The notes beneath the pieces are model-generated. The model had not been told where the DNA came from and ran no database searches. It saw only the letters and a list, made by a program, of their open reading frames with translations. Below, piece after piece: positions 11,565 through 30,042 of a stretch of DNA of 64,000 nt. The first letter of the stretch is position 1. The number at the start of each line of letters is the position of its first letter. Location of the stretch: assembly GCA_025924315.1 (NCBI GenBank), contig JAICIO010000001.1:124001-188000 (forward strand). The letters are read 5' to 3'. The stretch comes from Phycisphaerae bacterium. GTDB taxonomy: Bacteria; Planctomycetota; Phycisphaerae; Tepidisphaerales; Tepidisphaeraceae. The position numbers and the translations under genes are program-made.

Positions 11565-11567
11565 CGG

Positions 11568-11655
11568 AAATTCGAAATTCGAAACAAAGTCGAATGACGA
11601 ACGACCGAAACGTTTCGAATTTTGAGCATTGGAATTTGTTTCGAATTTCGAGTTT
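11568..11655. repeat. Inverted repeat, family D (AT-rich 'TTCGAAATTCGAAAC' type)
   Basis: Arms at about 11568-11596 and 11627-11655 share AAATTCGAAATTCGAAAC-like sequence in inverted orientation, with a few mismatches. Its low GC contrasts with the neighbouring genes. It lies between the BatA stop (11564) and the ATG at 11673. Confidence 0.8.
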
Positions 11656-11672
11656 CGAATTTCGAGTTTGAA

Positions 11673-14144
11673 ATGCATCGATTGCTACAAATCCTCTTCG
11701 GTGTGAAGCCGGCGCCCTGGACACAGGGCGGTGATTGGCGGCTGGAGTGGCTCGCGCTGCCGAAGCATGAGTGGATGCTTCTGTTGCTGCTGGCCATTCT
11801 CGCGAGCACGTGGGGCGTGCTGTGGCTGTACAAGCGCGAGGGGCGGAACCTGTCGCTGCCGGTGCGCGTGGGGCTGACGTCGCTTCGCATGATCATCCTC
11901 CTCGGCATCGTCGCGATGCTGGTCGAGCCGGTGCTGGTGTTCTCGAAGAAGGAAATGGTGCCGTCGAACCTGCTCGTGCTGACAGATAATTCCGAGAGCA
12001 TGGAGCTGAAGGACGCGTATGTCGATGATGCGCAGGCGAAGAAGTTTGTCTCGGCTTTGAACCTGCCGGGTGGATTGAACGAACTTCGCGATCGGACGCG
12101 CCGATCACTCGCGGAGCATCTGCTGGATACAGGACTGAAGGAGAAGCTCGAAGCAGGTGGTGATCGGGTCGTGAAGGTGCGTGGGTTCACATCCCTACTT
12201 GTGGATGACACGAATTCCTCTGCGAAACCGCAAGCGACTTCGCAGCCCAGTGCAGCAACCCAACCGCTCGCGGTTTCGCAGACCTCTAAGCTTGATCGGA
12301 GCGCGACCGCGATTGGCGCGTCGATTCGACAAGCGATTAGTGAATACCGCGGGCAACCACTTGCAGGAATTCTGCTGATCAGCGATGGGCAATCGAACAC
12401 CGGTGAATTGCCTGTGAAGGCAGCGGAGCTTGCCGCTGGTGAAGGCATTCCGATCGTCGCGCTCGCGTCGGGAACGCCGGAAGGTCCTCGCAACGCGAAG
12501 CTGACGAAGATCGAGGTGTCGCCGGTCGTGTTCGTGCGCGATCCGAATCCGTTGCGGGTAATCATCGAATCGAAGGGTCTTGCGAACAGCCAGGCTACGC
12601 TCGTCGTCGAGAAGCGTCGCGATGGCGGGCCGTGGGAGGAGATTTCGCACCAACCGATCACGCTTCAGGAGGCGGGGCAGGTGCAGACGGTTGGGCTGGA
12701 GTTCAAGGAAGATCGGCCGGCGAAGCTCGAGTTTCGCGCGCGAATCACAGACGTCGGGCCGGAGCTGACGCAGGACGACAATGTCGGCACGGCTGAAGTG
12801 CGTGTAATTCGCCAGAAGATCCGCGTGCTGTTCATCGCGGGTTCGACCTTCCCCGAGGTGGAGTTCATCCGGAACACGCTGTTGCGCGACACAGGTCTCT
12901 CCGCTTCCACCTGGCTTCAGACCGCGGACAACGATTACGTCCAACCCGGCAATCCAAGCATCCGTCGTCTGCCCGCCACACAGGAAGAGCTGAACGATTA
13001 CGACTGCATCGTGATGTACGATCCGGACCCCAGCCTCTGGCCGCAGGAATACAACCAGATGCTGACGGACTTCGTCGCGAAAGCCGGCGGCGGGCTGATC
13101 TACATCGCGGGCGAGCGCATGACCAAGCAGCTCTTCGATCGGCAGGAAGATCCCGCTCTCGGATGGCTCAGCATGCTGCCGGTCGTGAGCGAGCCGGGTC
13201 TTTATCGCACGGAAGTCAGCGTGAAGCTCAGCTCGCGCGAGCCGTGGAAGCTCGACATCACGCCGGAAGGCAAGGCGGACTCGATCTTCCAGTTTTCCGA
13301 CAAACCGGATGAGAACGACCGCATCCTCGCCAGCATGCCCGGGATGTTCTGGCATTATCCGGTCACCCGCGCCAAGCCGGGCGCGACGGTGCTGGCGCGT
13401 CACGGCGATCCGAGAATGCGCAACGAGCACGGCCCGCACGTACTGCTCGCGACGCAGCTCGTTGGGCCGGGGCGAACGTTCTTCGTCGGCTTCGACAGCA
13501 CGTACCGCTGGCGCTATCTCGACGAACAATACTTCGACGGTTTCTGGGCGCGCATGATCGACCGCGCGGGGCGATCGAAACAACTCGGCGGGCGATATCC
13601 GTACACACTCTCGACCGATCGCAGCACTTATAAGCCCGGCAGTCAGGTGACGCTCACCGCTCACTTCGACAATCCAAGCGATCGCGACACAGGACTCGAT
13701 TCGCTGCATGGTGAAGTGGAAGTAGCGGACCAACCGACGATTCCGCTGACGCTTTCTCCGCGGCCGGGCGATCCGAGCACGTTTGATGTCACGTTCCCGG
13801 TGAATAATCCCGGATTGCATTTCGTCCGCGTGTGGACGGGCGATCAGGATCTGAAGCAGGTCGTTCGCGCCGCCACGCTGCAGATGCCCGTCGAGTTGCC
13901 GAATCTCGAATACGAGCACCCCGGCATCGATCTCGTCACGCTGCAAAGCGTCGCGAAGACGGCGCACGGTGGCGTGTTTGATCTGTCGCAGGCGGATCAG
14001 ATTGCGGACGCGTTCAAGATCAAGCGCGTCGCGCGCGTGCTTGAAGATCGGCAGGAGATCTGGAACGCGCCGATTTTGTTTGGAACGGTACTGCTCGCGT
14101 TGTTCTGCGAGTGGGTGCTGAGGAAGCGGTTCAGGCTGGTGTGA
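11673..14144 (+). CDS. Large membrane vWA / glutamine-amidotransferase-like protein
   Basis: 823 residues. Two N-terminal TM helices (WMLLLLLAILASTWGVLWLY; LRMIILLGIVAMLVEPVLVF) come first. A vWA region follows with NLLVLTDNSESMELKDAY (D-x-S-x-S variant D-N-S-E-S) and ILLISDGQSNTGE. Next is a Rossmann-like segment, RVLFIAGSTFPEVEFIRNTL...IVMYDPDPSLWPQ...GGGLIYIAGE, as in the GATase1-like domain of this protein class. A beta-rich region and a last TM helix (ILFGTVLLALFCEWVL) complete it. I start at ATG 11673, because the upstream extension reads through the AT-rich inverted repeat. Residues about 183-203 are encoded by an in-frame palindromic repeat (see the entry at 12219). Confidence 0.82.
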   Translation: MHRLLQILFGVKPAPWTQGGDWRLEWLALPKHEWMLLLLLAILASTWGVLWLYKREGRNLSLPVRVGLTSLRMIILLGIVAMLVEPVLVFSKKEMVPSNLLVLTDNSESMELKDAYVDDAQAKKFVSALNLPGGLNELRDRTRRSLAEHLLDTGLKEKLEAGGDRVVKVRGFTSLLVDDTNSSAKPQATSQPSAATQPLAVSQTSKLDRSATAIGASIRQAISEYRGQPLAGILLISDGQSNTGELPVKAAELAAGEGIPIVALASGTPEGPRNAKLTKIEVSPVVFVRDPNPLRVIIESKGLANSQATLVVEKRRDGGPWEEISHQPITLQEAGQVQTVGLEFKEDRPAKLEFRARITDVGPELTQDDNVGTAEVRVIRQKIRVLFIAGSTFPEVEFIRNTLLRDTGLSASTWLQTADNDYVQPGNPSIRRLPATQEELNDYDCIVMYDPDPSLWPQEYNQMLTDFVAKAGGGLIYIAGERMTKQLFDRQEDPALGWLSMLPVVSEPGLYRTEVSVKLSSREPWKLDITPEGKADSIFQFSDKPDENDRILASMPGMFWHYPVTRAKPGATVLARHGDPRMRNEHGPHVLLATQLVGPGRTFFVGFDSTYRWRYLDEQYFDGFWARMIDRAGRSKQLGGRYPYTLSTDRSTYKPGSQVTLTAHFDNPSDRDTGLDSLHGEVEVADQPTIPLTLSPRPGDPSTFDVTFPVNNPGLHFVRVWTGDQDLKQVVRAATLQMPVELPNLEYEHPGIDLVTLQSVAKTAHGGVFDLSQADQIADAFKIKRVARVLEDRQEIWNAPILFGTVLLALFCEWVLRKRFRLV
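12219..12282. repeat. Palindromic repeat inside coding sequence, family E
   Basis: TCTGCGAAACCGCAAGCG (12219-12236) is the inverted complement, with one mismatch, of 12265-12282. The same sequence with 17-bp perfect arms recurs inside hrpA (27235-27282). Here it encodes the Ser/Ala/Gln/Pro-rich linker 'SAKPQATSQPSAATQPLAVS' of the vWA protein, without breaking the frame. Confidence 0.85.
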
Positions 14145-18654: not shown

Positions 18655-21600
18655 ATGCAGCAACCGATTCCACCTTCGGCCGTGACGAGTGCGTCTACTA
18701 TTTTCGGAACGTATATCTCCAAGCTCGCGCTGACTCTGCTCCTTGTATGCCTGATCTCGCCTTCGCTGCGCGCGCAGAACGCGCCCACGACCGGTCCCAA
18801 CGGCCAGGTCTTCATTCAGCCCGAGAAGGGCGTTCAGCTTCAGCTGAAGCGCCCGTGGGTTCCGCGGCCCGACGTCGCGGGAACCAACGTCCAGCTATAC
18901 GGCGCCGATCTCACCGCGCCGAATCCGATCTTCACTGTGGCCGAGGCGAACAAGCGCTGCTCGTGGCTCTACAACCTCGCCATCCCGATCGATGTGAACA
19001 AGTATCCGATCGCCGTGATGCGCTACCGGGCGAAGAACATCGATGCGAAATCGGTGTACACGCTGCGCGTCGACAGTGGCACCGCCCCCGCGGGTTGCTG
19101 CCGGTTGTTTACCGGCGCCGAAATCGTGAGCGACGGTGAAGTCCACGAGGTGAAGAAAGACCTCCGCGATTTCAAAGTGACGGAGCCTCTCGCGCTCGTT
19201 GGCATCGGCCTGCAATCGGCGAATGATTCGCCCGCGACGCTGGAGCTGATCGGTCTCGATTTCAATGCGCCCGACGACGCACCGGTCGATATCTCGGGCG
19301 ACGATAACGCGATCCACGTCAACGTCGTCGATGAACAGGACAATCCCGTTTCCAAAGCACGTGTTCTCGTCGACGCCGAGCGCCATAACTTCACGCGTTT
19401 TGCGCGCACCGACGATAGCGGCAACACAACCGTCACCCCGCGAAAGAATGAATCCGACACGCACATGCTATCCGTCACCGCCCCGGGGATGACGACGGTC
19501 GAAGTGCAAAAGGCCGAAGCCGGCGACGAGCCTGTGAAGGTGAAGCTCGCACACGCGAAGTTATATGGAGGCGTGGCGAAGTTCGATGATAAGCCGATCG
19601 CCGGCGCGATGGTGCTCGCCGCGGTGAAGGGTGACGCGGCCGAGGGCACGCAGGAGTTGCGAACGTATTCGACGATCACGGATTCGGAAGGCCGCTGGCT
19701 CACGCCGGCGCTGAATGCGGATGTCGAGCAGATCAGCCTGACGATGTCGCGCGCAGAGAATGGCTCCATCACCAAGACCGATCTCGACGCGAACCAAGCA
19801 CAGGCGGCAGCGACGGACGTTCGCCGTGAGCTGATGCAGGCGCGCCTCGCCGCAAACGGTGGACGCATCGTGCGCGTAGCGCCCGCGGGCGGGGCTGTTC
19901 AGATTCAGGTCGCGCCGGGCGGAAAAGCGGTCATTGTCGGCGGAAAGGTTGCCGTGCGCGGTCAGGCAGTTGCCGGCGGCGCGCCAGCGGCCGCGACGAC
20001 CGCGCCGGTCGCCGCGGGCAACGAGTCGACGCTTCCGCCGCCGGGTAAATCCGTGGTCATCCAGCTTGCTCGCCCCTGGGATCCGCGGCCGGATTACGGC
20101 GGTCCCGATGCCGCCGAGATCTATGGCCAGAACACGCGGCAACAGGTGGCCAATGGCAAGGTTCAAAAGTCGATCGTCTTCACCAGCGGACAACCGGGCA
20201 AATCGGTTGTTTTCCTCTATCCGCTTTCGGTCCCGATCGACATCACGAAGTACCCGATCGCCGTCGTCCGCTACCGTGCCAAAAATATCAATCCCAACGA
20301 ACAGTACACGCTGCGCGCCGATTACGGCGAGGGCGGACCGGGACACGTCATCCGCATGTTCGCCGGCGAGGAAATCAAATCCGACGGCGCCGAGCATGAG
20401 CTGAAGAAAGACACGCGCGACAGCAACGTTTCCGATCCGATCAATAGCATCGGTATCGCGCTTCAGTGCAGTCCCGAAGCCGGCCCGGCGACGCTGGAGA
20501 TTCTCGAGATCCGATTCGATGCCCCCGATAACGCCGCTGCCGCGAAGGCTGAAAAGGACGCGCCGATCAAAGTGACGGTGACGGATGCGGACGATCAACC
20601 ACTGGCCGCTGCCCTGGTCGGGCCCGACTACGAGCGCACGAATTTCTCCAGCGTTGGAGTCACTGACGCGAAAGGCGTTGCGACCGTGCATCCGCTGAAG
20701 AATGAGGCCGAAAAGCACAGTCTTTACGTTTTGAAGGAAGGATTCGTTCCGACCGAGGTGACGGATGTTGCGCCCGACGCGGGCGAGATCACGGTGAAGC
20801 TCAACCCCGCGAAGGATTATGGTGGGGTGATCAAAGGCGACGATAACAAACCGCTTGCAGGCGTGATGGTGCTCGCGGCGGCGCATTCGAATCCCGAGCC
20901 CGAGCGTCGCGTCGTCACGGAGTACAGCACGATCACGGATGAGAAGGGCCGATGGCTGGTAAAGGGCCTTCCCGCGGACGCCTCCGCGGTGACAATCGGC
21001 AAAGTACAGCTCAAAGAGGGCGCGCCTGCGCAGGAACAGATTGACTCCGCGCAGGCACTCGACAGCGCGAGCGCAGTCGCGAAATCCCTGATCGCGGACG
21101 ACAACGTGATGCTCGCCGCGGCGAAGGTCGCACCTGTTGCAAACACCGCGCGGCCGACAATGACGAGCGGGCCGGTCGCGAAGGCCAGCGCCGGCGCTCC
21201 CACGACGGCGCCCGCCGTGGCAAGAGTCGCCGGCACGAACGCACCGACCACGCAACCTCTGCCGGCCCCAGAAAAAGCCATCGTGCTGGACATCCATCGC
21301 CCCTGGCTCACCGGCCCGATGTGGGACGGCAACGAACCGCCCAAAGCATATGGCGAAAATCTCGACCTCCTCGAACCGCGCTTCACCGTTGTCGATGCCA
21401 ACGCCAAGAGCTTCTGGCTCTACAAGCCCGGCATGCCGATCGATCTGGCGAAATATCCGATCCTCAAGCTCAAGTATCGCGCGACGAATACGCAGACACA
21501 GGGCGACGGATACGTGCTGCGGCTCGTACAGGGCGACGTGCTGCAGGTGCTCAAATCATCTGAGCTAACCGCGGACGGAAAGGTTCACGAATATACGAAA

Positions 21601-25160: not shown

Positions 25161-28100
25161 TCATTTTCGCACTTTATCCCACAGCCGCTCCAGTCGCTGA
25201 AGCGAGACCGGTACCGACGTCTTCAGCTCCTGCGCGAAAAGCGACACGCGCAGTTCCTCCAGCATCCATCGATATTGCTCGAGCGCCGGATCGACGATGT
25301 TCGCCTTCTGATGCTTCTCCAGCCGCTCATAGTATTGCTTCGATAGCTCACCCAACGTCTTCATCGCCGCCTCGTCTCGCGACAGCCCCGCGTTCGCGAG
25401 CTTCTGCAATCGCACCTTTGTCCCGTCAATGAATCGCGGCAAATGCTTCAGCCACTGCGGCGGAGTTGCACTGATGAAACCGGGGTAAGCGAGGTTCGAA
25501 AGCTGCGCGCGAATATCGACGGCCGCGTTGTGCCACGTCGGCGGAAGCTTCGCGCTGAGCTGTTTCTCCACCTCGTGCAGGTTGGCGAGCGTTTGATACA
25601 CAATTTCCGAAATCTCGTTCTGCGCCTCACTCAGATGCCGCCACTCGGAATTGGCCAGCTCGATGAACGCCTCGCGCGTGCGAATCACGCGCTTTTCGCC
25701 GAAGAACGCACGATCCGCGACGGCGTTCAACAGATCCTCCTTCAATTCGTCGCAGCTTCCACGCGTCGACCACCAGAGGCACATCTGCTGGATGTTCGGA
25801 ATTGATCGCGACAGCTGCAAAAACTCGCGCTTCAGCTGCAGCATGAATAGCCGCTTCAGCCCGGCGCGCATCTCCTTCTCCGCGGCCGCGGGTGAGTCGA
25901 GCAGCCGCAGCCCGACCTTATCCTCTTGATCGACGATCGCGGGGTAACCGTATAGCGTCATCCCATGCCGGCGGATCTCGACCCGATCGGGCAAATCGCC
26001 GAAATCCCAGCTCGTCATTCCGTCGATCGTGAACTCCATCTCGGGCGAAAGCGCGAACTTGTCGCTCGCCGCCACGCCGACTTGTTCGCGCAGGTCTCGT
26101 AAATCGCGCCCGATCGCGGCCGTTTTCCCGAACTCGTCCACAACCGCGAAGTTCATCTTCAGATACTCCGGCATCGCGGAGAGATCGAACGAACTCGGCG
26201 GAATCGTTACGCCCGCGCGCTTGCCAAGCCATTGCGCCAACGACTGCTGAAGCGATCCAATGCGGAACGGCATGCCGCGCGCCGCCTCGCTCGCGGTCTC
26301 CGCCATCGGCATGAAATTCACGCGCAGCGGCTTCGGCAGCGAGCGGATCATCGTGTGCACTTTTTCTTCGAGCAGCCCAGGCACGATCCACTCGAACGGC
26401 TCGGGTGGAATCTGATTCACCGCCGTGAGCGGCACGCGCACCGTCACGCCGTCCATCGGCCCGCCGGGATCGAGGTGGTATTCCAGCGGCAGCGTCATCT
26501 CATTCACGATGATGTGATCGGGAAAAAGATCCTGCGTGATCGTAACCGCCGGATGCAGCATCAGATCCTCGATCTTCATCATCAGCAGATCCGAATCTTT
26601 CTGCTCCGCCTCCTTTCGCCAGGCCTCAAAGAGCGGTCCGCTGTAAACCTTCGCCGGCACACGCGCGTCGTAGAAGTCGTACAACACCTTCGCATCCACC
26701 AGCAGATCGCGGCGGCGCTGCTTTGCTTCCATCTCGCGAACCTGTTCGACGAGCCGGTGATTGTGCTTGAAGAATCGCGCGTTGGTGTTGAACTCGCCTT
26801 CGATCAACCCGCGGTGGATGAGCATTTCGCGCGACGCCAGCGGATCGATCGGCCCGTAATGGACGAGCCGCCGCGCGATGATCGGCAGCCCGTAAAGCGA
26901 CACGCGCTCATACGCCATCACGCGCCCGGTCTTTGCCTGCCAATGCGGATCGGAATAGCTGCGGTTCACCAGATGCGACGCAAGTCGCTCGATCCATTCC
27001 GGCTGAATGCGTGCAACGGTTCGCGCATAAAGCCGCGTCGTCTCCACCAGCTCTGCGGCGACGATCCACGCGGGCTTTTGATGGAACAGTCCCGAACCGG
27101 GAAAGATGTACAGCTTCATGTTGCGCGCGCCGGTGTACTCGTGCGCGTCGGTCTTCATCGCGATGTTGCCGAGCAGGCCCGTCAGTAGCGCGCGATGGAT
27201 CTGATCATATTTCGGATGACGCGTCTCCGACTTCGCTTGCGGTTTCGCAGATGCAGCCGTGTTCCTCTGCGAAACCGCAAGCGGCTGTGCCACATGCTTC
27301 TTCGCAGACACCAGCCCATTCTCCGCCATTATCTGATGCACCTGCTGGTGAACGTCATGCCACTCACGCATCCGCACGAACGACAGGAAATTTGTCTTCG
27401 CCAGTTTCCGCATCTGGTTCTTCGAGAGCTTTTCCTGCTGCCCATGCCAGAAATCCCACAACTTCAGATACGAAAGAAAATCAGACTGATCGTCGCGGAA
27501 CTTTTCGTGGGCGATGTCGGCTTGCGGGGCTTTTTCGTGCGGACGCTCGCGCGGATCCTGGATCGAAAGGGCAGACGCGATGATCAGCATCTCGTCGATG
27601 CAGTTCTCGCGATCGCCCGCGAGGATCATCCGGCCGATGCGCGGATCAATCGGCAACTTCGCGAGCAGCCGGCCGATGTCCGTCAGCTCGTTGTTCTCGT
27701 TGATCGCGCCGAGTTCGTGCAGCGTCTGATAGCCGTCCTTGATCAGCCGATAATCCGGCGGCTCGACGAACGGGAAGCTCTGCACCTCGCCCAGTCGCAG
27801 CGCCTTCATCTGCAGAATGACGCTCGCGAGGTTCGTGCGGAGAATCTCCGGCTCCATGAACTTCGCCCGGCGCACGAAGTCATCTTCCGAATACAGCCGG
27901 ATGCAAACGCCCGGCCCGACGCGCCCGCAGCGGCCGGCGCGCTGATTCGCGCTCGCCTGCGAAATCTCCTCGATCGGCAATCGCTGCACTTTCGTGCGCG
28001 GCGCGTATCGGCTGATGCGCGCAAAACCCGGATCGATCACATATCGAATCCCCGGCACCGTGAGCGACGTCTCCGCGACGTTCGTCGCGAGCACGATTCG

Positions 28101-29120
28101 CGGTTTGCCGTGCGGATGAAAGACCTTCATTTGCTCTTCGGCACTCAGGCGCGCGTAGAGCGGCAGGATCTCCACCCCCGGTGGATGGTGCTTGCGCAGC
28201 GCCTCGCTCATCTCGCGAATTTCACGCTCGCCGGACAGGAAGATCAGCGTGTCGCCCGAGCCTTCTCGCCACAGCTCATCCACGGCACCCAGGATCGCAT
28301 CATCCAGCTCCGCATCTTCTTCGTCCGCATCGTCCGAACGCAGCGGCCGATAGCGCACCTCAACCGGATACGTCCGGCCCGACACCTCGATGATCGGAGC
28401 CTTCCAGAAGTGATCGCTAAATCGCTGCGGATCGATGGTCGCCGAAGTAATGATCAGCTTCAGATCGCGGCGCTTAGGGAGAAGCTGCTTGAGATAGCCG
28501 AGAAGGAAGTCAATGTTCAGGCTGCGCTCGTGCGCTTCGTCGATGATGATTGTGTCGTAATGATTGAGAAAGCGATCATGCTGCGTCTCCGCCAGCAGGA
28601 TGCCGTCGGTCATGAGCTTGATGTACGTATCCTCGCTCAGCTTGTCGCTAAACCGGACCTTGTAGCCAACCGCATGCCCCAATGGCGAATCAAGCTCCTG
28701 CGCAATCCGCATCGCCACGCTTCGCGCCGCGATCCGGCGCGGCTGCGTGTGGCCGATCATGCCCGCGACGCCCCGTCCAAGCTCCAGGCAGATCTTCGGC
28801 AACTGCGTCGTTTTTCCCGACCCGGTCTCGCCGCAGAGGACCACGACTTGGTTCGCTGCGATTGCTTGCGCGATCTCGTCGCGCTTTTCGACGACCGGCA
28901 GCTCAGCAGGATATTTCGGCGCAGGCAGGTTCTTTTGTCGGTGATCGAACAACTTTTGCGATCGCTCGATATCCGCGGCGACTTTGCGCAGCGTTTGTTC
29001 AACGGACGCACCCTCGCGCGCGGCGTCTTCGATCTCGCGCAACCGCCGGCGCAAGCGATGCCGATCGCGGATCATGCAGCGCTCGAGCGCGCTCGAAAAT
29101 GTTTCCAGCTCGATAGGCAC
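25161..29120 (-). CDS. hrpA: ATP-dependent DEAH-box RNA helicase HrpA
   Basis: 1319 residues, close to the ~1300 of Escherichia coli HrpA. Motif I is GETGSGKTTQ (residues 97-106), motif II is IIIDEAHERS, motif III is ITSATI, and motif VI is QRAGRCGRVGPG. The long HrpA-specific C-terminal region (DUF3418-like, e.g. PEMEFTIDGMTSWDFGDLP and FMLQLKREFLQLSRSIPNIQ) is complete. HrpA acts on mRNA and ribosome-associated RNA as a 3'-5' helicase. Unusually, residues about 608-630 (PLAVSQ...SAKPQA) are encoded by a palindromic repeat inserted just before 'IHRALLTGLLGNIA'. The gene is terminated by the family F palindrome. Confidence 0.95.
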   Translation of the reverse strand: MPIELETFSSALERCMIRDRHRLRRRLREIEDAAREGASVEQTLRKVAADIERSQKLFDHRQKNLPAPKYPAELPVVEKRDEIAQAIAANQVVVLCGETGSGKTTQLPKICLELGRGVAGMIGHTQPRRIAARSVAMRIAQELDSPLGHAVGYKVRFSDKLSEDTYIKLMTDGILLAETQHDRFLNHYDTIIIDEAHERSLNIDFLLGYLKQLLPKRRDLKLIITSATIDPQRFSDHFWKAPIIEVSGRTYPVEVRYRPLRSDDADEEDAELDDAILGAVDELWREGSGDTLIFLSGEREIREMSEALRKHHPPGVEILPLYARLSAEEQMKVFHPHGKPRIVLATNVAETSLTVPGIRYVIDPGFARISRYAPRTKVQRLPIEEISQASANQRAGRCGRVGPGVCIRLYSEDDFVRRAKFMEPEILRTNLASVILQMKALRLGEVQSFPFVEPPDYRLIKDGYQTLHELGAINENNELTDIGRLLAKLPIDPRIGRMILAGDRENCIDEMLIIASALSIQDPRERPHEKAPQADIAHEKFRDDQSDFLSYLKLWDFWHGQQEKLSKNQMRKLAKTNFLSFVRMREWHDVHQQVHQIMAENGLVSAKKHVAQPLAVSQRNTAASAKPQAKSETRHPKYDQIHRALLTGLLGNIAMKTDAHEYTGARNMKLYIFPGSGLFHQKPAWIVAAELVETTRLYARTVARIQPEWIERLASHLVNRSYSDPHWQAKTGRVMAYERVSLYGLPIIARRLVHYGPIDPLASREMLIHRGLIEGEFNTNARFFKHNHRLVEQVREMEAKQRRRDLLVDAKVLYDFYDARVPAKVYSGPLFEAWRKEAEQKDSDLLMMKIEDLMLHPAVTITQDLFPDHIIVNEMTLPLEYHLDPGGPMDGVTVRVPLTAVNQIPPEPFEWIVPGLLEEKVHTMIRSLPKPLRVNFMPMAETASEAARGMPFRIGSLQQSLAQWLGKRAGVTIPPSSFDLSAMPEYLKMNFAVVDEFGKTAAIGRDLRDLREQVGVAASDKFALSPEMEFTIDGMTSWDFGDLPDRVEIRRHGMTLYGYPAIVDQEDKVGLRLLDSPAAAEKEMRAGLKRLFMLQLKREFLQLSRSIPNIQQMCLWWSTRGSCDELKEDLLNAVADRAFFGEKRVIRTREAFIELANSEWRHLSEAQNEISEIVYQTLANLHEVEKQLSAKLPPTWHNAAVDIRAQLSNLAYPGFISATPPQWLKHLPRFIDGTKVRLQKLANAGLSRDEAAMKTLGELSKQYYERLEKHQKANIVDPALEQYRWMLEELRVSLFAQELKTSVPVSLQRLERLWDKVRK
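27235..27282. repeat. Palindromic repeat inside hrpA, family E
   Basis: Perfect 17-bp arms: 27235-27251 is the reverse complement of 27266-27282 (TCTGCGAAACCGCAAGC). Next to it, 27280-27296 reads GCGGCTGTGCCACATGC, identical to 17 bp at the end of the repeat upstream of mnmG (30109-30125). The insertion is therefore a mosaic of two repeat families. It keeps the hrpA reading frame open. Confidence 0.88.
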
Positions 29121-29139: not shown

Positions 29140-29799
29140 TTAGACGTCGCGCAGCAGCAGCTTTAGGTCATTGGGAGTATGTGCTGAATAGTGCGGCTGC
29201 AGCGCACGAATCTTGTCCGCGTAGACGGGATGCCACCCCGCCCAGATCGTTCGCATCCCCGCCGCTTTACCCGCACCGATGTCCGCGGGCGAATCGCCGA
29301 TGAACACGCACTCGCGCGGCGAGATTCCAATTTCACCCGCGACCAGCAGCGGGCCTTGCGGATCGGGTTTCGGCTTCGTCGTCTCGTCGCCTGTGACAAC
29401 GCTCCTGAAAAGATCGGTCCAGCCCAGCTCCCCAAGCGTAATATCAGCCGTATCGCGCCCTTTGCCGGTCATGATTCCCATCGGCACTCCGCGAGAGTTC
29501 AGCGCGTTCAACAGATCCGAGATCCCCTCGAAAATCGTGCACATCTCTGAATGCCGTGCTCGATACTCCTCAAGAAAGACGCGCTTCGCGTTCTCAAAAT
29601 GCTCCGCCTTCAGCTCCTTGCGCAGCATGGCGACTTCGGTCAGTCCAAACCGGGCGATCACTTCCGCATTGCTATACGTGCGTCCCATTGGCTCGCGGCA
29701 GGCGACGTTCCATGCGTGAATGACGAGGCCAAACGAATCGACGAGTGTGCCATCGAGGTCGAAAATAATTCCCTTCGGTGCAGGGTCAATCGGCTGCAT
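29140..29799 (-). CDS. HAD-superfamily phosphatase, phosphoglycolate phosphatase-like
   Basis: 219 residues from the ATG at 29799. HAD motif I is GIIFDLDGTLVDSF (D-x-D nucleophile), motif II is MGIMTGKGR, motif III is TKPKPDP and motif IV is VFIGDSPADIGAGKAAG. A helical C1 cap lies between motifs I and II, as in Gph/PpaX-type enzymes. The substrate is undetermined; phosphoglycolate or a small phosphomonoester is likely. The open frame continues 76 codons further upstream, but that part is His/Arg-rich, lacks homology-like character and overlaps the divergent gene at 29845. It lies 19 bp after the hrpA start on the same strand. Confidence 0.86.
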   Translation of the reverse strand: MQPIDPAPKGIIFDLDGTLVDSFGLVIHAWNVACREPMGRTYSNAEVIARFGLTEVAMLRKELKAEHFENAKRVFLEEYRARHSEMCTIFEGISDLLNALNSRGVPMGIMTGKGRDTADITLGELGWTDLFRSVVTGDETTKPKPDPQGPLLVAGEIGISPRECVFIGDSPADIGAGKAAGMRTIWAGWHPVYADKIRALQPHYSAHTPNDLKLLLRDV

Positions 29800-29844: not shown

Positions 29845-30042
29845 ATGGATCGCTGGCTCGCACGACTTTCGTTCAGCTTCTTCATCATCGCCGCAGTGCT
29901 GGTATGGGAGATTTACAAGTCGATGATCGGCGAGCGCGGGCCGGTGCCGCAGTGGCGGATCGCGCTGTACATGATCGCGACGGTGATGTGCATTGCCCTG
30001 GGTGCGATGGGTGTGCGAGCGCGGCATCGATCCAACTTGTAA
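29845..30042 (+). CDS. Small two-TM membrane protein
   Basis: 65 residues with two hydrophobic segments (FSFFIIAAVLVWEIY and IALYMIATVMCIALGAMGV) joined by a short charged loop. Start ATG 29845. It is divergent from the HAD gene, with 45 bp between the starts, and upstream of the palindrome that precedes mnmG. No family is recognised. Confidence 0.6.
   Translation: MDRWLARLSFSFFIIAAVLVWEIYKSMIGERGPVPQWRIALYMIATVMCIALGAMGVRARHRSNL

Follow-up and report, generated by a model that had tools for sequence, protein, structure and literature searches.

A REPIN-like inverted repeat family with a copy read in frame in a membrane protein gene of a Phycisphaerae bacterium

The inverted repeat at positions 12219-12282 of the window (the whole 64,000-nucleotide stretch analyzed, positions 124001-188000 of contig C1 in the 6.57 Mb, 262-contig draft genome G000 of a Phycisphaerae bacterium) is read in frame within a gene for a membrane protein. 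With a probability of about 0.8, this repeat is one member of a genome-specific, REPIN-like family of inverted repeats, here called family A, which spread by copying, and it is tolerated in a linker of its host protein. The finding adds a further case to a known phenomenon, namely the translation of inserted DNA as part of a protein that tolerates it. In a bacterium that has received little study, it offers a full count of how palindromic mobile repeats become coding: the event is rare, it occurs in tolerant linkers, and the frame used is the one with a mild peptide and not the one with the fewest stops.

The element consists of two inverted 18-nt arms with one mismatch between them. The left arm of this type II element, TCTGCGAAACCGCAAGCG (12219-12236, plus strand), codes for SAKPQA, the inner spacer (12237-12264, plus strand) for TSQPSAATQ and the start of PLAVSQ, and the right arm, the inverted copy with one mismatch (12265-12282, minus strand), for LAVSQ. 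The 823-codon host gene (11673-14144, plus strand) reads through both arms in frame, and the resulting peptide, SAKPQA-TSQPSAATQ-PLAVSQ, begins and ends with the words given in the initial annotation. The host had been named there as a vWA membrane protein. The membrane protein of 823 aa matched no Pfam or NCBIfam family at E 0.001, and the label is based on a DNSES stretch that is putatively MIDAS-like; the gene is referred to here as vWA-like. Upstream of it, an intergenic stretch (11565-11660) is made of repeated TTCGAATTTCGAG words. The sole close ortholog available, with 66% identity, is found in the relative G016 and reads LLSD-STTQPTTQPGGV-DRSTTAIG, without CGCAAGCG. At the same place the window protein reads LLVDDTNS-SAKPQATSQPSAATQPLAVSQ-TSKLDRSATAIG, and the Thr/Gln/Pro core of this linker is bracketed by the two arms. 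As the short STTQPTTQPGGV linker is already present in the G016 ortholog, the repeat appears to have lengthened a pre-existing linker. The copy would have entered this Thr/Gln/Pro linker, lengthening it by roughly 15-20 residues, and may have survived because the frame was kept and the linker became merely longer.

A second in-frame copy, a type I element with the inverted arms in opposite order, is located in hrpA (25161-29120, minus strand), encoding the 1319-aa ATP-dependent RNA helicase HrpA, the identity of which is firm (NCBIfam TIGR01967, 1706 bits). Two perfect arms (27234-27251 and 27266-27283) make up the ends of this copy, and positions 27234-27283 code for PLAVSQRNTAASAKPQA on the minus strand. 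The peptide PLAVSQ-RNTAA-SAKPQA contains the same words in the same frame as in the vWA-like gene, in agreement with the initial annotation. Between the aligned blocks, 32 residues are present in the window HrpA compared to 6 in E. coli HrpA, and the insert is absent from the HrpA of two relatives, G021 and G011. Both the vWA-like and the HrpA copy lie within length-variable stretches flanked by conserved blocks. HrpA of G010 is found in two halves with about 3.6 kb of other sequence between them, at the junction of the repeat (G010:C97:53000-61500, L242). The halves of G016 HrpA are on different contigs, with other sequence past the break, which falls in the same linker (L243, L244). The junction therefore seems to tolerate even separation of the two halves.

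A 17-mer search with up to 3 mismatches found four arms in the window, those of the vWA-like and HrpA pairs and none else, compared to a mean of 0.71 and a maximum of 3 in 100 shuffled windows. Genome-wide, the exact 16-nt family A arm, GATCTGCGAAACCGCAAGCG, was found 126 times (52 followed by A and 74 by another base) and its reversed control was not found. A chance match was rejected on these counts. At up to one mismatch the number of arms was 169. The final census was based on exact arms, tighter spacing and DNA fetched around all 126 arms, which group into 93 elements. Of these, 59 are type I pairs, 14 are type II pairs and 20 are single arms. Together, the inverted pairs, which have narrow spacing, number 73 of the 93. 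An earlier element set, with arms at up to 2 mismatches and looser pairing, was used for the stop test and the table of stop-codon distances; it mispaired two coding singles (C17:66754 and C3:63596) and included two in-gene arms (C3:44595 and C88:3907) that are probably not family A. The elements are about 50-64 bp long. In the type I consensus the loop between the arms reads GATC...ACGCGT...GATC. Type II is the kind found in the vWA-like gene, and the spacers of its other copies are variable in sequence and similar in length. The type I consensus folds as a long hairpin (z -10.4), as does the vWA-like copy (z -4.6), and the four pairs folded span this range, z -4.6 to -10.4. A REP unit would by itself form a stem-loop of 20-40 bp; a single family A arm folds weakly to TGCG/CGCA (-3.5 kcal/mol), and 8 of 200 shuffles folded equally well.

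Exact arms were present in two of 60 relatives, nine in G010 and five in G021, and no relative of the same genus was found among these 60 genomes. Five of the loci in relatives were read (three in G021 and two in G010): four had no open frame longer than 122 codons at the arm, and at one G010 locus the frame was 215 codons. A scan of named genomes with a 20-nt arm, in which the window genome was possibly excluded, gave six single matches on six contigs and no family. Among the papers listed for REPs in Planctomycetota and for in-frame REPs, none was recognized as covering family A, which is not proof of absence.

Family A is mainly intergenic. According to gene calls made with a simple codon-usage script, and not with a published program, 77 of the 93 elements are intergenic and 16 are in genes; 85.3% of the 728 kb of DNA sampled is coding. 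Intergenic location was observed for 55 of 59 type I pairs, 13 of 14 type II pairs and 9 of 20 singles, and singles were in genes more often than pairs (11/20 vs 5/73, Fisher 7e-6). The intergenic pairs of the earlier set concentrate 2-30 nt past stop codons, and 34 of 60 are faced by a stop codon within 30 nt. The neighboring genes are convergent for 7 of 13 type II pairs, compared to 78 of 424 background gaps of at least 60 nt, and divergent for 14 of 47 intergenic type I pairs. The initial annotation had proposed that the repeat may act as a source of disordered linkers; since 77 of 93 elements are intergenic, the repeat is not mainly such a source. The in-frame occurrence of one repeat in unrelated genes, seen there in two cases, was found to extend to the 16 coding elements, and the possibility that the two window copies were the only coding ones was rejected. 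The coding copies are hosted by Mfd, HrpA, the vWA-like protein, TsaD, GltX, PurB, putative PutA-like and BioA-like proteins (named from sequence), a Ser/Thr kinase and others.

All three family A pairs on contig C1 (Mfd, vWA-like and HrpA) are in genes, compared to 2 of 70 pairs elsewhere. A foreign origin of C1 was considered and rejected, as its tetranucleotide profile agrees with those of C2, C3, C5 and C7 (mean correlations 0.987-0.991). Other repeats of the genome are also present on C1. On contig C20, a type I element (21445-21495, L143) joins an upstream gene and hisG into one frame of 533 codons, and the two genes are kept apart by stops in G010, G011 and G016.

The repeat had also been suggested to possess a stop-free frame. 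The six-frame test proposed along with this was performed on the earlier element set. Type I elements (n=51) had 4.92 open frames of 6 compared to 4.59 in dinucleotide shuffles (sd 0.11), and type II elements (n=12) had 5.33 compared to 4.62 (sd 0.24). None of 200 shuffles reached the observed value for either type, and at least one of the six frames was open in every element and every shuffle. The excess of open frames over shuffles was thus confirmed, but the frame used by most coding copies proved to be the least open one. The AKPQA frame of the forward arm was open in 60 of 102 readings and the other two frames in 95 and 96 of 102; for type II the numbers were 20 of 24 for AKPQA and 22 of 24 for each of the others. 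AKPQA is the least open frame because the consensus loop TTGATCTGCG puts a TGA in it, and at this position the type I coding copies read GCA (Mfd), GCA (HrpA) and TCC (C176). The AKPQA/LAVSQ frame is used by 11 of the 16 coding elements (binomial against 1/3, P 0.004). A pooled count of all sister families over about 0.8 Mb agreed with this: of the in-gene arms, 9 of 10 forward ones were read as AKxQA and 5 of 9 reverse ones as LAVS, although the two arms of a pair are not independent observations. A stop-free frame was rejected as the cause of the coding copies, since these mostly use the frame that is most often broken by stops. Tolerance of the peptide appears to explain the frame choice better than a lack of stops, and among insertions lacking the loop TGA, selection may have favored the AKPQA/LAVSQ frame as one giving a hydrophilic peptide that is tolerated.

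Several single arms are present in genes with no change in length. The single arm in TsaD showed no net length change against 4 of 4 aligned relatives; a gap of 2 residues was seen at the arm against the solved structure 6n9a, so that length neutrality is limited to these four relatives and does not hold for all homologs. PurB was length-neutral against 4 of 4 relatives and the two solved structures shown, and GltX against 3 of 3 relatives. The PutA-like protein was length-neutral against G016 (64% identity), the sole informative alignment, three of its four alignments being gapped and of little use (two overlapping G004 loci with 41% identity and G010 with 46%). In addition to the family A arm (SAKPQA), the PutA-like gene (C193 201-3104, L220) contains a second in-frame palindrome-like stretch, GEAPAEP...RQEPRPP. 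Partial likeness to the arm is already present in relatives for PurB and GltX, for instance as GGTTTC in G016 PurB and CTTGC...TTCGC..ATC in G010 GltX. Net gains were observed for the singles in C173 (6 residues against G016) and at C3:55982 (14 residues against G010). The coding copies in the BioA-like gene (C214), C17 and C22 fall within variable regions and were counted neither way, and those in C91, C176 and at C3:63596 were without an aligned relative. At least four coding singles are thus without net insertion against a relative, and plain insertion is no explanation for them. They could have arisen by insertion plus a deletion of exactly the same length, by gene conversion, or by drift towards the arm. 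Drift with a drive predicts near-matches, and these were not in excess: coding matches numbered 7, 1 and 2 at 0, 1 and 2 mismatches (control means 0, 0 and 0.3) and were in the control range beyond. As a tentative suggestion, single arms might also overwrite 18-20 nt of conserved genes (TsaD, PurB, GltX, PutA) at already similar places, leaving the length unchanged. If true, this would mean a spread of REPs by conversion or template switching as a route separate from transposition, and it could partly account for the mostly coding location of singles and the mostly intergenic location of pairs. The length-neutral single arms present a testable puzzle on the spread of such repeats.

The same singles could be taken as a sign that the arm is a recognition sequence, built up at its sites through mutation and biased exchange, as are the DUS/USS uptake sequences. 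The higher coding share of singles and the stop codons facing 34 of 60 intergenic pairs within 30 nt would fit, and uptake sequences, as described in parts of PMC2346458, likewise show a coding-frame orientation bias and inverted intergenic pairs. Family A differs from DUS/USS in having no near-match tail in coding DNA, a low copy number (126 in 6.57 Mb) and a long conserved pair structure, with most copies paired and loops conserved outside the arm, all of which make such an origin unlikely. Somewhat better placed, although still doubtful, is the explanation that the pairs are mainly RNA elements of gene 3' ends, either terminators or mRNA stabilizers, kept for this function, with the coding copies as by-products. 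It is consistent with the strong hairpins, the clustering 2-30 nt past stop codons and the enrichment of type II pairs between convergent genes. However, the type I pairs between divergent genes do not fit, no T-run followed the hairpin among the sequences listed, and coding copies cannot serve in this way without mRNA truncation. A position past the stop codon is moreover usual for REPs according to parts of PMC3733652.

A third explanation would make the repeat a source of coding sequence, kept readable by selection as a supply of disordered linkers. The 16 coding copies, the frame bias and the open-frame excess over shuffles could be cited for it, as could a post hoc contrast with the abundant sister repeats R1 and R2 (listed sequence with TAG and TTA), of which none of 44 copies lay in a gene, compared to 6 of 11 family A elements on the same contigs. 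This explanation is highly improbable, as only 5 of 73 pairs are in genes, the coding copies favor the least open frame, and a benefit was shown for no peptide. Tolerated copies of a REPIN-like family are therefore the preferred reading. Family A would have spread by copying, probably through a REP-associated tyrosine transposase (RAYT) acting in trans, and most copies would have settled just outside genes.

As outlined in parts of PMC3116915, PMC2817692 and PMC8266576, REP/REPIN systems with a RAYT are characterized by high copy number, inverted doublets with a variable spacer, and a mostly extragenic location near gene 3' ends, and family A shares these features. REPs occur in about 100 copies or more, compared to the 126 exact arms (169 with up to one mismatch) found here, and 77 of 93 elements are extragenic. 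The inverted REP pair forming a hairpin, which defines a REPIN, corresponds to the 73 paired elements. Several families and a RAYT-like gene flanked by REPs (of sister family B) are also present in this genome. Family A differs in having no RAYT of its own found flanked by the same repeat, and in its two doublet arrangements, whose inner sequences differ. By inspection, no constant GTAG or CGTC tag was seen in the arm GATCTGCGAAACCGCAAGCG or the listed flanks, which places family A outside the two REP superfamilies of PMC3733652. In the parts of that work by Di Nocera and others concerned with intragenic REPs (Opitutus terrae, Rickettsia conorii and other species), REPs are mostly near gene 3' ends, and in-frame copies are already reported in DNA repair, RNA helicase and tRNA synthetase genes, similar to those found here. 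Their dimers encode 20-30 aa and are suggested there to sit in linkers or loops, again as in family A. The present case differs in repeat family and host, in the measurement of frame bias against stop content, and in single arms without net insertion. The palindromic elements of Rickettsia (RPE), for which parts of PMC2229807 give the background together with Correia elements, are likewise in frame within conserved proteins, as are 16 of 93 family A elements. RPE are 105-146 bp long, whereas family A elements are 50-64 bp and mostly intergenic.

The arms of the sister families B (GCTAAGCCGCAAGCGGC), C (GCGAAATCGCAAGCG) and D (GCGAAGACGCAAGCGACT) share CGCAAGCG with family A. A RAYT-like gene on contig C169 (8472-9118) has family B arms on either side and one inside. 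RAYT- or IS200-like Y1 genes on C56, C5 and C130 are each bracketed by inverted copies of their own palindrome, and the C20 Y1 gene has related palindrome copies on either side. For NCBIfam REP_Tyr_transpos, C20 was just above the cut-off (80.6 vs 80 bits) and C169 (48/80) and C5 were below it. Palindrome-transposase pairs are plentiful in this genome and family A is sister to one of them, that of family B, on which basis a RAYT is probably the mover of family A. None of the ten Y1 matches in the genome was flanked by family A arms, and no RAYT for family A was found among them. Family B arms in genes in the AKPQA frame were observed at C1:20342, C3:44556, C7:26693 and C1:44979, one of which forms the C-terminus of its gene. 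The commonest palindrome of the sample, TAGGGTCCGCTTCAGCGGACCGGTTATT (with a TGCGC variant), flanks an IS200-type gene on C56 in inverted orientation (29187-29216 and 29898-29929), and 0 of 44 core copies of this palindrome and its variant were in genes on five big contigs. On C124 (13071-15809, L135), a 913-codon frame, putatively a DinG-like helicase as named from sequence, contains an IS200-like Y1 domain in the middle of the gene with no stop. The Y1 domain is preceded by the peptide RDTGFQPV, presumably a common peptide of planctomycete repeats.
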